In this document: in pieces, positions 12,640 to 56,596 of the stretch
Layout: each line of letters starts with the position of its first letter
Numbering within the stretch: position 1 is the stretch's first letter
From: an uncultured Spartobacteria bacterium
GTDB taxonomy: Bacteria; Verrucomicrobiota; Verrucomicrobiia; Chthoniobacterales; Chthoniobacteraceae
DNA length: 57,878 nucleotides
Direction of reading: 5' to 3'
NCBI GenBank assembly: GCA_903901425.1
Contig: CAIURC010000051.1
Span: 1-57,878 of the forward strand
Translations under genes and position numbers: made by a program
The notes under the pieces: generated by a model
What the model was told of the DNA's origin: nothing
Database searches by the model: none
What the model saw: the letters and a program-made list of their open reading frames with translations, nothing else

Positions 12640-14169
12640 ATGAAAATTCTCCGACTCCTCCTTGGTGACCAACTCCACCCGCTGCATCCCTGGTTTGCCG
12701 AGGTTTCCCGGGAAACAGTTTACGTCCTGATGGAGGTCCGACAGGAGACCGACTACGTGCTTCACCATGCCCAAAAAATCCTCGGGATCTTTGCCGCGAT
12801 GCGGGATTTCGCGGGGCACCTGGAACGGAACGGTCACACGGTGGTCTATCTCTCGATTGATGACCCCAAAAACTTGCACTCCATTCCCGCAAACCTCCAT
12901 CGGCTGATTTCAGAACTGGATGCGGAACGGTTTGAGTACCAGGAACCCGACGAATGGCGGCTCGACGACCAACTCCGGTCTTTTGCCGCCTCCCTCGAAA
13001 TCCCCTCCCAGTGCGCCGAATCCGCTCATTTTCTGACCTCCAGAACGGATGCAGCCACGTTTTTCGGCGAACGCCGCCAGTGGCGCATGGAACTGTTTTA
13101 CCGCTGGATGCGGACACGACACCAGATCCTGCTCGATAAGGACGGCGAACCTGCGGGCGGCCAGTGGAATTTTGACCCCGAAAACCGCAAGCCGTGGAAA
13201 GGGGAACCTCCGCCTCCCGCTGACTGGCGCAAACCCCATGATCATTCCCTCCTCTGGGAAACCATTCAAGAGTCCGGGGTCCGCAGTTTTGGGAACCCAC
13301 GTGCATCCGATTTCCGGTGGCCGCTAAACCGCTCCGAGGCTCTTGCAGACCTTGAATCGTTCGTCCGTGCGGCACTGCCCAACTTTGGGGACTTCCAGGA
13401 TGCACTCAGCACCGGCCAATGGCGGCTTTTCCACTCCCTGCTGTCGTTTGCGCTGAACACGAAAATGCTTTCCCCCATGGAGGTTGTCCGCCGCACGGAG
13501 CAGGCTTACCTGGAGGGCCGGGTGCCACTCGCTGCCGCAGAAGGATTCATCCGCCAGATCTTGGGATGGCGCGAGTATGTTCGCGGCGTTTACTGGCGAT
13601 TCATGCCGGGGTATGCCGAGCGCAACTTTTTCGAGCACACCGCGCAACTGCCAGGATGGTTCTGGACCGGGAAAACCCGGATGCGGTGTGTTTCTCTGGC
13701 GATCTCCCAGTCCTTGGAAGAAGCCTATGCCCACCATATCCAGCGGCTCATGGTGATCGGCAACTTCTCCCTACTCGCCGGACTCGACCCCGCCCAAGTG
13801 CACCAGTGGTATCTTGGCGTCTACATCGACGCGTTTGAATGGGTCGAACTTCCCAACACGGTTGGCATGAGCCAGTTTGCCGATGGCGGACTGCTCGCCT
13901 CCAAACCCTATGTCTCCAGCGCTGCCTATCTGGACCGGATGGGCGATGCCTGCGCCTCCTGCGCCTACAAGAAGAAGGAACGCACCGGCCCCAACGCATG
14001 CCCGTTCAACTCCCTTTACTGGGATTTCTTTGACCGCCACGCCACCAAACTCCGCAAGAACGTGCGATTGGCCATGGTCTACCGCCAACTCGAAAAAATG
14101 ACTCCCACCCAACTCACGCAACTCCGGTCCGAGGCGGCCCGAATCCGGTCCGATCTGGACCGGTGCTGA
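12640..14169 (+). CDS. Cryptochrome/photolyase family protein with [4Fe-4S] cluster
   Basis: This 509-residue member of the bacterial iron-sulfur cryptochrome/photolyase clade (COG3046 type) probably repairs UV (6-4) photoproducts or senses light using FAD. The N-terminal domain starts LRLLLGDQLHPLHPWF. The C-terminal FAD domain includes FIRQILGWREYVRG, the RLMVIGNFSLL helix, and DAFEWVELPNTVGMSQFADGG. Four cysteines fit the cluster ligands of the family: C350, C438, C441 (CASC) and C454. The length matches the clade. The 3' end is followed directly by a 9-bp tandem repeat array. Confidence 0.92.
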   Translation: MKILRLLLGDQLHPLHPWFAEVSRETVYVLMEVRQETDYVLHHAQKILGIFAAMRDFAGHLERNGHTVVYLSIDDPKNLHSIPANLHRLISELDAERFEYQEPDEWRLDDQLRSFAASLEIPSQCAESAHFLTSRTDAATFFGERRQWRMELFYRWMRTRHQILLDKDGEPAGGQWNFDPENRKPWKGEPPPPADWRKPHDHSLLWETIQESGVRSFGNPRASDFRWPLNRSEALADLESFVRAALPNFGDFQDALSTGQWRLFHSLLSFALNTKMLSPMEVVRRTEQAYLEGRVPLAAAEGFIRQILGWREYVRGVYWRFMPGYAERNFFEHTAQLPGWFWTGKTRMRCVSLAISQSLEEAYAHHIQRLMVIGNFSLLAGLDPAQVHQWYLGVYIDAFEWVELPNTVGMSQFADGGLLASKPYVSSAAYLDRMGDACASCAYKKKERTGPNACPFNSLYWDFFDRHATKLRKNVRLAMVYRQLEKMTPTQLTQLRSEAARIRSDLDRC

Positions 14170-14181
14170 CCCTTGGCCGAC

Positions 14182-14262
14182 GTCCATCAGGTCCATCAGG
14201 TCCATCAGGTCCATCAGGTCCATCAGGTCCATCAGGTCCATCAGGTCCATCAGGTCCAATAG
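14182..14262. repeat. GTCCATCAG 9-bp tandem repeat
   Basis: Eight perfect copies of GTCCATCAG (14182-14253) are followed by one degenerate copy (GTCCAATAG). The array starts 13 bases after the photolyase-like stop codon and ends just before the 3' end of the convergent HNH gene. Both strands stay open across it only because the unit length is a multiple of three. Shorter copies of the same unit occur at 51743-51769. Confidence 0.95.
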
Positions 14263-14279: not shown

Positions 14280-14885
14280 CTATCCGCCCTGCTCGACATT
14301 CCAATGGGCCAAATCGACAAAGTGCCGCCAGCTCTCGTGCAACTGCGACTCGAAGGTGATGTGGACAAACGGCCGCCACTTGGGGCGTACCGGCTTGCGG
14401 ACCAACTGCATCCGGGCCTCATGGGGCAACCGATTCGCCTTGCGCGTGTTGCACGGGATACATGAACAAACAATGTTCTCCCAAGTCGTCGCCCCGCCGC
14501 GGTCCCGGGGAATCACATGATCCAAGTTCAGATCGCGCCGGTCAAAAATCCGACCACAGTACTGGCAGGTATTTCTGTCCCTCTGGAAAACGTTGTGCCG
14601 GGTGAATTTCACCTCCTTCCGCGGGACCCGATCGAAAAAATGGAGGAGGATCACTCTGGGAACCCTGATGCGGAAAGAAACGCCGGAAACCATTTCCTGA
14701 CCGGGTTCCCGTTCCGAGAACCCGCGCCAACTCTCGAAATTGTGGGTCAAAAAATTCCGGCCTTCGTGGGAATACACTACCTCTGCCTGCCCTGCACAGA
14801 GAAGGGTGAAGGCGCGCCTCACCGAACAGACGTTCACCGCCTGCCAAAGCCGGTTTAAAACAAGCACCTGTTGATCCAGCATCAT
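14280..14885 (-). CDS. HNH endonuclease-like protein
   Basis: This 201-residue protein has a C-terminal HNH nuclease fold. A CQYC pair is followed by DLNLDHVIPRDRGG (the HNH His-Asp core) and a CIPC pair with NTRKANRLPHEA, giving the zinc-stabilised beta-beta-alpha-metal motif. The N-terminal half starts VLVLNRLWQAVNVCSVRRAF and is shared by stand-alone bacterial HNH proteins of this kind. Function is unknown; nucleic-acid cleavage is inferred from the fold. The start at ATG 14885 has GGGAG 6 bases upstream. It is not next to a methyltransferase or phage genes, so there is no sign of a restriction system. Confidence 0.86.
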   Translation of the reverse strand: MMLDQQVLVLNRLWQAVNVCSVRRAFTLLCAGQAEVVYSHEGRNFLTHNFESWRGFSEREPGQEMVSGVSFRIRVPRVILLHFFDRVPRKEVKFTRHNVFQRDRNTCQYCGRIFDRRDLNLDHVIPRDRGGATTWENIVCSCIPCNTRKANRLPHEARMQLVRKPVRPKWRPFVHITFESQLHESWRHFVDLAHWNVEQGG

Positions 14886-22421: not shown

Positions 22422-22470
22422 GGGTTCCATCTCCTAGGTTCAGTTGGGGGATCCTTCCAGCAGTTCTTTT

Positions 22471-22505
22471 AGACCGCTTTTTTAAACCGCTTTTTTAAAC
22501 CGCTC
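22471..22505. repeat. 13-bp direct repeats of the AAACCGCTTTTTT type
   Basis: Three near-identical units lie end to end: AGACCGCTTTTTT (22471), AAACCGCTTTTTT (22484) and AAACCGCTCTTTT (22497). They fall between the HTH-hydrolase start and the end of the MFS gene. A related GAAACCGCTTT occurs at 24928. Confidence 0.75.
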
Positions 22506-22643
22506 TTTTTGGTTGGGTTTTTTGGCCGGGTTCTCGGTGGAATTTGCCTCAGCGCGGTGTCCGGTTTTCCAGTCCGGTTTTCCGGAATGGCTCGCCCTGT
22601 CCGCAGATTCCGTCCTCACAGAAAGAAATACGCAAGCGGGGCT

Positions 22644-51297: not shown

Positions 51298-51741
51298 GTG
51301 GACCAGAACCCATCAGCGCAGGGTCCGGAAAAAAGCGGCAACCCGCCTCGCGTTCTGATCCTTGAGGACGAAGAAATGCTGCGGGAACTCATCCGGATCG
51401 CCTTGGAAATGCTTGGCTGCGAGGTTGCGGAGGCCGCAGATGGCAGAACCGCCCTGCAGAGCCACCGACTTGCATCCGACGCCGGAACCCCGTTTTCGCT
51501 CCTGATCAGTGACCTGTCCCTTCCTGGGGACCTTTCGGCCGTGGAAACGCTCCGTCAGATGCTCGAAAAAACTCCCGGGCTCCGAGCGCTCCTCTGCACG
51601 GGAAACACAGAGTCGGACGTCTTCCGGAACTTTCGGAACCATGGGTTCTGTGGGCGGATCCCGAAACCGTTTGAGGTTGCGGACTTATTCCAGACCATCC
51701 AGAGCCACCTACCAGAAACGCCGCGCCGGAGCCCGCACTAG
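51298..51741 (+). CDS. Stand-alone response-regulator receiver protein
   Basis: This 147-residue protein consists of one CheY-like receiver domain. The acidic pocket is E23-D24, the phospho-acceptor is Asp 72 in LLISDLSLPGD, the switch Thr is T101, and Lys 123 lies in IPKPFEVADL. There is no output domain and no histidine kinase next to it. The LSLPGDLS loop resembles receivers attached to hybrid kinases, so it may act in a phosphorelay. It follows apt by 28 bases on the same strand. Confidence 0.87.
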   Translation: MDQNPSAQGPEKSGNPPRVLILEDEEMLRELIRIALEMLGCEVAEAADGRTALQSHRLASDAGTPFSLLISDLSLPGDLSAVETLRQMLEKTPGLRALLCTGNTESDVFRNFRNHGFCGRIPKPFEVADLFQTIQSHLPETPRRSPH

Positions 51742-51742
51742 C

Positions 51743-51769
51743 GCCCATCAGGTCCATCAGGTCCATCAG
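51743..51769. repeat. GTCCATCAG tandem repeat, second locus
   Basis: One variant (GCCCATCAG) and two perfect GTCCATCAG units begin two bases after the receiver gene stop codon. The unit is identical to that of the array at 14182. Confidence 0.85.
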
Positions 51770-51852
51770 GTCCCCCCAGGCCCACACAGCACGCTCAGTC
51801 GCTGTACTTTTCTCCCACCCCTTTTCTCCCACCTGCCATCCGCCGCCGCGGA

Positions 51853-51926
51853 TGGCTACCCGACAAGGATTCGAACCTTGACTAAGGGCTCCAAAGACCC
51901 CTGTGCTACCTTTACACCATCGGGTA
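51853..51926 (-). tRNA. tRNA-Gln (anticodon UUG)
   Basis: The minus strand folds into a full cloverleaf of 74 bases including an encoded CCA end. The acceptor stem TACCCGA/TCGGGTA is perfect and starts with the U1-A72 pair typical of tRNA-Gln. The anticodon loop CTTTGGA presents UUG at positions 34-36 on a stem with two G-U pairs; the T arm is CAAGG-TTCGAAT-CCTTG. It decodes CAA. Confidence 0.92.
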
Positions 51927-56521: not shown

Positions 56522-56545
56522 CCCATCCAGTCCATCCAGTCCCAG
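56522..56545. repeat. TCCATCCAG short tandem repeat
   Basis: CCCATCCAG, TCCATCCAG and TCCCAG lie end to end before the 56597 gene, followed by CCCCTG repeats at 56566-56583. The unit resembles but is not identical to GTCCATCAG. Confidence 0.6.
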
Positions 56546-56596
56546 TCCCTGCTGGGCAGCTTGCCCCTGCCCCTGCCCCTGCTCATACTCCCCGGG

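Follow-up and report, generated by a model that had tools for sequence, protein, structure and literature searches.

Tandem GTCCAT arrays in a Spartobacteria genome as likely members of a dispersed repeat family associated with TIGR04258 four-helix-bundle genes

Why the same nonamer stands in tandem directly behind two genes 37 kb apart is the question raised by contig CAIURC010000051.1 of an uncultured Spartobacteria bacterium (assembly GCA_903901425.1, hereafter the home assembly). All 57,878 nucleotides of this stretch were analyzed and are referred to as the window. Slippage is the usual explanation for short tandem repeats between bacterial genes. A sequence-only reading had proposed a genome-wide dispersed element or a role at transcript ends. 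The arrays and their neighbors are the following:

12640-14169, + strand: photolyase-related gene (PF04244), with its stop 12 bp ahead of the main array
14182-14262, + strand: main array of eight exact GTCCATCAG units and one degenerate unit, flanked by the 3' ends of two convergent genes
14280-14885, - strand: HNH endonuclease-domain gene beyond the main array, convergent with the photolyase-related one
51298-51741, + strand: response-regulator receiver gene (PF00072), with its 3' end 1 bp ahead of the second array
51743-51778, + strand: second, short array of GCCCATCAG (at 51743), two exact GTCCATCAG units (51752-51769) and a degenerate GTCCCCCCA
51853-51926, - strand: tRNA-Gln gene beyond the second array
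56522-56547, + strand: third, degenerate array, CCCATCCA GTCCATCCA GTCCCAGTC, with a GTCCAT core, the spacer CCA and one exact GTCCATCCA

The sequence-only reading counted nine tandem units after the photolyase-like gene and three after the receiver gene. Both arrays are present with a slightly different composition, the first having eight exact units (14182-14253) and a degenerate ninth (GTCCAATAG, 14254-14262) and the second two exact units plus GCCCATCAG. Its placement of the arrays within 15 bases of a stop codon agreed with the gaps of 12 bp (ORF end at 14169) and 1 bp (ORF end at 51741), and the related array that it reported at 56,522 was recovered with the GTCCAT core and CCA spacer. 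Recurrence of the 9-mer was correct for both window loci, but the part that recurs genome-wide is GTCCAT and not the full 9-mer. Exact GTCCATCAG occurred 10 times in the window compared to 0.51 expected and at most three times in any of 100 shuffles. The one Rfam match within the window was a tRNA, and the window arrays sit after protein genes. A hairpin terminator was not retained for either array, as folding at 14182 was no better than in shuffles (z 0.21) and the 51743 array gave a weak structure (z -1.89; 7 of 200 shuffles were equally good). Adjacent period-13 tandem repeats at 22467-22583 of the window (TTTTAAACCGCTT and others) are unrelated to GTCCAT.

The repeat unit consists of a constant GTCCAT core and a spacer of three, sometimes four, bases that varies between arrays. 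The home assembly (5.10 Mb, 224 contigs) contained 176 + 128 matches to GTCCATN{0,30}GTCCAT and 5 + 2 matches to the reversed pattern, and the three-unit pattern GTCCATNNN was found 102 + 63 times (165 in all) compared to 0 + 0 for its reverse. Home spacers were CAG, ACA, TGA, CCC, CCA, GAG, TAG, CAA and GTG, and two arrays with four-base spacers have a period of 10. Among 163 arrays from home and foreign loci, adjacent spacers agreed at 895 of 1440 bases (62%) compared to 26% between arrays; since the arrays were picked by exact core, core identity inside arrays is given by construction, which does not apply to recurrence over genomes. Two related genomes were compared at an orthologous site, where G111 has 12 units with the spacer GAA and G063 has eight with the spacer AAA; their flanks can be closely aligned, both arrays have the same core and an apparent decayed inverted arm lies upstream. 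This one case suggests that spacer and unit number change throughout an array without any change in the core. A 13-unit, period-10 home array (GTCCATTGAA; locus L304, C1:3-128, outside the window) lies at a contig end, so home arrays may break the assembly and be undercounted. A GTCCCTTAA array at home C17:34471-34503, also outside the window, gave two overlapping three-unit matches of another core, and no gene with this core was seen in the home genome.

Bacterial sequences contained at least 112 stretches matching a four-unit GTCCAT pattern. Those listed included Hydrogenedentota, Lentisphaerae, Sumerlaeota/BRC1, Chlorobi, Cloacimonadota, Chlamydiae, Phycisphaerae, Acidobacteriales, Desulfomicrobium and others, and some matches (Streptomyces, Paenibacillus and similar) look like coding coincidences. 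Fifty of the 66 distinct genomes among the four-unit matches listed were tested; three-unit GTCCAT had at least 10 matches in 39 of them, and the reversed pattern had none in all 50. When the loci of eight genomes were compared with themselves, several contained multi-copy repeats longer than the arrays.

Opposed arrays no more than 150 bp apart formed 37 pairs, with the ATGGAC side first in 33 and the opposite order in 4 (p 1e-6), a count that covers the four-unit-pattern loci and the home loci minus 11 judged to be coding coincidences (Paenibacillus, Brevibacterium, two Paraburkholderia, a delta proteobacterium, two Streptomyces, Actinomadura, Oxalobacteraceae, Geomonas and Anaerolineales). 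The median center of the inverted pairs was 27 bases. Folding relative to shuffles gave z values of -11.9, -9.3 and -6.5 for three foreign pairs and -1.2 and -2.6 for two home pairs, and facing spacers, in a set that counts two home loci twice, matched at 92 of 225 bases (41%) compared to 27% with shuffled partners, a level reached in 0 of 2000 shuffles. The 11 coding coincidences are also absent from both spacer comparisons.

A passage in a lake study reports deletions located at tandem repeats between genes, apparently those of Planctomycetes, and names slippage (PMC9426551). Ordinary microsatellite slippage with no special driver is consistent with the likeness of spacers within an array and with the differing unit number at the orthologous site. 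Slippage would not, however, pick the same six bases in many phyla, with the reversed pattern at zero in 50 genomes, nor would it order opposed arrays 33 to 4 or mark one gene family, as described below. A simple microsatellite would show no fixed sequence common to unlinked arrays, and GTCCAT recurs over contigs and phyla. As a complete explanation, slippage alone is very improbable and was rejected; inside an array, however, unit number probably does change in a slippage-like way. The earlier preference for a genome-wide dispersed element over random slippage was borne out by the three-unit counts in the home assembly and by the relatives in many phyla.

Open reading frames that match TIGR04258 (four helix bundle suffix) and TIGR02436 (four helix bundle protein) contain or adjoin some of the arrays. 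A single TIGR04258 match was found in the home assembly:

Contig C12, 35458-35601, outside the window: TIGR04258 (suffix) match

The home protein scored above both cut-offs, with 66.4 bits for TIGR04258 (cut-off 40) and 28.3 for TIGR02436 (cut-off 24), and reached 26.4 with Pfam PF05635, under the cut-off of 33.8. GTCCAT arrays of 5 and 4 units lie upstream of the home gene, and arrays of 8 and 3 units lie in the linker between domain and suffix. The window arrays are likely to be dispersed members of a family that belongs to this gene, in a relationship that resembles REP and RAYT with a four-helix protein in the place of the transposase. Domain matches in the home protein were confined to the four-helix models (TIGR04258, TIGR02436 and PF05635) and a weak collagen-like one, and no catalytic or Y1/HUH domain was found. 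The linker array (L143) encodes repeated Asn-Gly-Leu, and the weak collagen-like score comes from array-coded residues. The likely start codon of the four-helix frame (L144) falls in ATGGAC, the reverse core, and arrays may for this reason supply start codons.

A structure model was examined for a homologue, L098, and not for the home protein. The model was built on a five-row alignment and had a mean pLDDT of 66.5, with parts of the helical core above 90. Helices were predicted at 98-117, 123-143, 150-177, 231-273 and 276-293, the linker near 218-233 was uncertain, and the suffix is read as a predicted long last helix with a basic end. The top solved structures were 2gsc and 2rld of the S23 family, with probabilities of 0.97-1.00, though all E-values were 0.02 or higher. 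A search of solved structures by sequence gave nothing of note, and a PADLOC search for defense systems with three proteins gave no match. Searches of the open PMC literature listed no paper that names TIGR04258 or TIGR02436, and none was seen to connect these genes with repeats. The four-unit GTCCAT pattern was present in 38 stretches of a viral collection; a TIGR04258 relative was not confirmed in that collection, and a phage origin was not retained.

Period-9 tandem arrays were frequent at TIGR04258 genes, where they lay on either side of the gene or inside it, in the linker that joins the four-helix domain to the suffix. A de novo 6-mer scan with no preset motif found a spacing of 9 with a count of at least three in 37 of 105 gene loci of the home phylum and in 0 of 2100 shuffles, where some genes were entered twice, a few of the arrays are coding repeats at the gene end, and 5 of 110 loci were left out as they had no domain-suffix pair. 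With 156 distinct proteins from many phyla, the spacing was 9 in 89 gene regions and 10 in 12; spacings of 18 and 27 are harmonics, and every other spacing was found in at most four gene regions. Only two of 48 control regions had such a spacing, and both were the window's own arrays. In the core labeling given below, 74 of the 156 genes had no array, which counts against a cognate-gene reading.

The commonest form of the core at TIGR04258 copies was GTCC plus two bases. Under a labeling rule that preferred a GTCC-type core if it had at least 60% of the top count, the 156 genes were labeled GTCCAT (23), GTCCAC (7), GTCCGA (5), GATCCG or CCGATC (5), GTCCTA (4), GTCCCA (4), GTCCTT (4), TCCCAT (3), others (27) and none (74). 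Fifty-three genes had a GTCC core, and 31 of these had arrays on both sides. The reverse core was outermost on the left and the forward core outermost on the right in 24 of the 31 two-sided loci; the home gene, with the usual orientation broken upstream, is among the seven that deviate. The dispersed inverted pairs have the geometry of the gene locus, with a short center of about 27 bases replacing the gene.

Across phyla, the core largely tracks the protein tree more than the host. The FastTree tree of the 156 proteins was built from domain and suffix columns with arrays and linker left out, and 31 of 187 loci had been removed beforehand because their proteins were identical or incomplete. 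On this tree the eight larger core groups needed 15 changes compared to a shuffled mean of 30.6, and none of 200 shuffles was as low. The GTCCTT group (Chlamydiota, Hydrogenedentota and one home-phylum genome) and the TCCCAT group needed one change each (support 96; unlabeled rows may fall inside), and the GTCCAT label, which spans eight phyla by record title, needed 6 changes compared to 17.7 when shuffled. The GTCCTA and GTCCCA labels were not clustered on the protein tree. Copies within a single genome, G332, carry differing cores (CGATCC, TATAGG, GTCCAC, GTCCAT, GTCCTT and GTCAAT).

Gene presence and array abundance were compared in two genome sets, with shared descent uncorrected in both. 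In a phylum sample of 288 genomes, TIGR04258 was present in 20 of 21 genomes with three-unit GTCCAT compared to 133 of 267 others, the exception being G005, which has arrays and lacks TIGR04258. In the 50-genome set the gene was present in 31 of 39 genomes with at least 10 matches compared to 3 of 11 with fewer. A GTCCAT-marked TIGR04258 copy was found in 25 of the 31 array-rich genomes that have the gene. Without four bait genomes (G306, G321, G330 and G332), in which the supporting array was the bait itself or lay beside it, the count was 21 of 27 compared to 2.6 expected if arrays were placed at random. These counts cover the copies fetched and not every copy (5 of 8 in G312; 2 of 3 in G290 and G299). 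A contrast of 0 of 67 is partly circular, since genomes without three-unit arrays can hardly have any at the gene, and was not relied on. Five more genomes of the phylum sample had at least 10 matches; G000 has a marked copy, and G111, G118, G205 and G287 (13-21 matches) had no GTCCAT among the fetched copies.

Four cores beyond GTCCAT were surveyed in 38 genomes. GTCCCT (39 matches, in G136), TCCCAT (23, in G197), GTCCAC (13, in G157) and GATCCG (90, in G263) each occurred with a gene of the same core. G083, G263 and G221 had repeat families without a matching gene among the genes seen, and in G047, G053, G145 and G245 the arrays were confined to the gene. All ten TIGR04258-free genomes searched with five cores gave zero.

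Another factor may make or spread the arrays, with TIGR04258 genes being a favored landing place or a passenger. Eight of the 39 array-rich genomes had no TIGR04258 match, and six of the 31 with the gene, Oligosphaera ethanolica among them, had no GTCCAT-marked copy among those fetched; both figures speak against a cognate gene and for such a passenger. A passenger would, however, take the core of its host genome, whereas TIGR04258 copies have each their own core and the cores track the protein tree over phyla. We consider a passenger role improbable.

The positions of the arrays relative to genes bear on whether they are working sites, that is, whether the core, located at gene ends or within transcripts, is a binding site of the four-helix protein for termination, mRNA stability or chromosome structure, with selection multiplying the sites and recombination and slippage dispersing them. 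Twelve of 13 single intergenic home arrays (at least three units and a readable upstream neighbor) followed a gene 3' end at 1-158 bp with GTCCAT on the sense strand (p 0.003), a figure based on fetched home loci, which are a subset of the genome's arrays, and on home-made gene calls. Constancy of the core at the orthologous site, where spacer and copy number changed, also favors working sites. The bias was modest over all loci, in which the upstream neighbor presented its 3' end in 34 and its 5' end in 16 and the downstream neighbor its 3' end in 32 and its 5' end in 23. The role at transcript ends that had been suggested thus describes the home genome well and holds more weakly across all loci. 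Arrays that number up to hundreds and have spacers of their own resemble an element more than a regulon, and the shared geometry of inverted pairs and gene loci, the several families per genome and the arrays inside open reading frames (62 of 165 inside an ORF of at least 360 bases) also argue against working sites, which we regard as an unlikely explanation overall.

The proposed TIGR04258 repeat system has its closest parallel of behavior in the REP/REPIN-RAYT systems. Passages in two papers describe RAYT genes with inverted REPs on both sides, REPs that change with the gene and a REP number that tracks gene presence (PMC2817692, PMC3116915). Dispersed short repeats, a gene between inverted repeats and hairpin-capable inverted pairs are common to both systems, as far as passages in these papers and a third describe them (PMC2817692, PMC3116915, PMC3733652). 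GTCC-type repeats likewise change with the TIGR04258 family, and repeat number goes with gene presence. In contrast, RAYT is an HUH transposase of the IS200/IS605 type and the TIGR04258 protein is a four-helix bundle in which no catalytic domain was found; a REP is a single palindrome with a GTAG or CGTC tag and the present repeat consists of tandem units of 6 + 3 bases whose core is of the GTCC type. The marks are the same, the protein is unrelated and the repeat is different, so the TIGR04258 system appears to work like REP/RAYT without being a member.

The arrays could alternatively be odd REPs driven by a Y1 (RAYT) transposase, as Y1 transposases were detected in 46 of 52 genomes. They were, however, also detected in 8 of 10 array-free controls and were absent from 4 of 42 array genomes (G176, G304, G305 and G331), and period-9 arrays were near none of 20 Y1 loci fetched, out of many, from array-rich genomes. 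A Y1 driver was not supported at the 20 loci tested and has very little probability in our estimate.

By protein, the nearest relative of the TIGR04258 system is the intervening sequence (IVS) of 23S rRNA. Both involve a four-helix protein from one Pfam family; the order reverse array, gene, forward array is frequent at TIGR04258 genes, and a stem closed around the gene would be a further likeness. The Avd proteins of diversity-generating retroelements, which have a related four-helix fold, are nucleic acid binders that assist a copying enzyme. A passage in a study of IVS elements describes stems with a four-helix reading frame (S23p/IVP) in the loop, located in 23S rRNA, and tandem heptamers of variable number just ahead of the reading frame in Coxiella (PMC4990558). 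Unlike the IVS, which according to the same passage sits in 23S rRNA and is excised from the RNA by RNase III (PMC4990558), the arrays are found genome-wide, have a nonamer unit and accompany a protein with the TIGR04258 suffix.

If the window arrays do belong to the home TIGR04258 gene, the following course of events is proposed. The TIGR04258 protein would recognize its own core, probably in the form of an RNA or single-stranded DNA hairpin, and would promote the copying of an array or hairpin module to new sites. Host enzymes would help in this step; they are invoked because no catalytic domain was found in the protein. Local growth and shrinkage of arrays by slippage or recombination would give one spacer throughout an array and leave the core fixed. 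Solo arrays, including those of the window, would be half or decayed elements that survived just after genes. A bolder and tentative extension, which we hold to be possible rather than probable, is a new self-spreading class in which nuclease-less four-helix-bundle proteins with about ten specificities of the GTCC-plus-two-base type drive the spread and upkeep of their own tandem-nonamer hairpins via host enzymes, with the 23S rRNA IVS being cousins that follow the same strategy. Repeats found over many phyla can be assigned to one gene family, and the match between protein and motif is legible in the sequence. If the explanation is true, TIGR04258-type four-helix proteins, so far named by structure alone, would acquire a function, one gene locus would predict the repeat family of a genome, and the question of how bacterial genomes fill up with short repeats would have another answer besides RAYTs and unrelated to them.

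Several individual loci had unusual arrangements. The 3' ends of four TIGR04258 genes (L175, L177, L179 and L181, in G021, G027, G063 and G220) have long arrays of a different kind, with GATAGGGGT or GACAGGGGT units, at the end of the reading frame. One gene of a GMC4 bacterium (L280) lies amid eight arrays of two cores, ATAGGAC and GTCCAAT, and is perhaps a nested or switching case. The single contig of Oligosphaera ethanolica (G083) contained 419 three-unit matches of GTCCAC, 149 of GTCCAT and 353 of GATCCG; one of its three TIGR04258 genes bears GTCCAC, and none bears GTCCAT or GATCCG. In the same organism, 51 GTCCACACT units in two blocks directly follow a TIGR04258 gene (L305).
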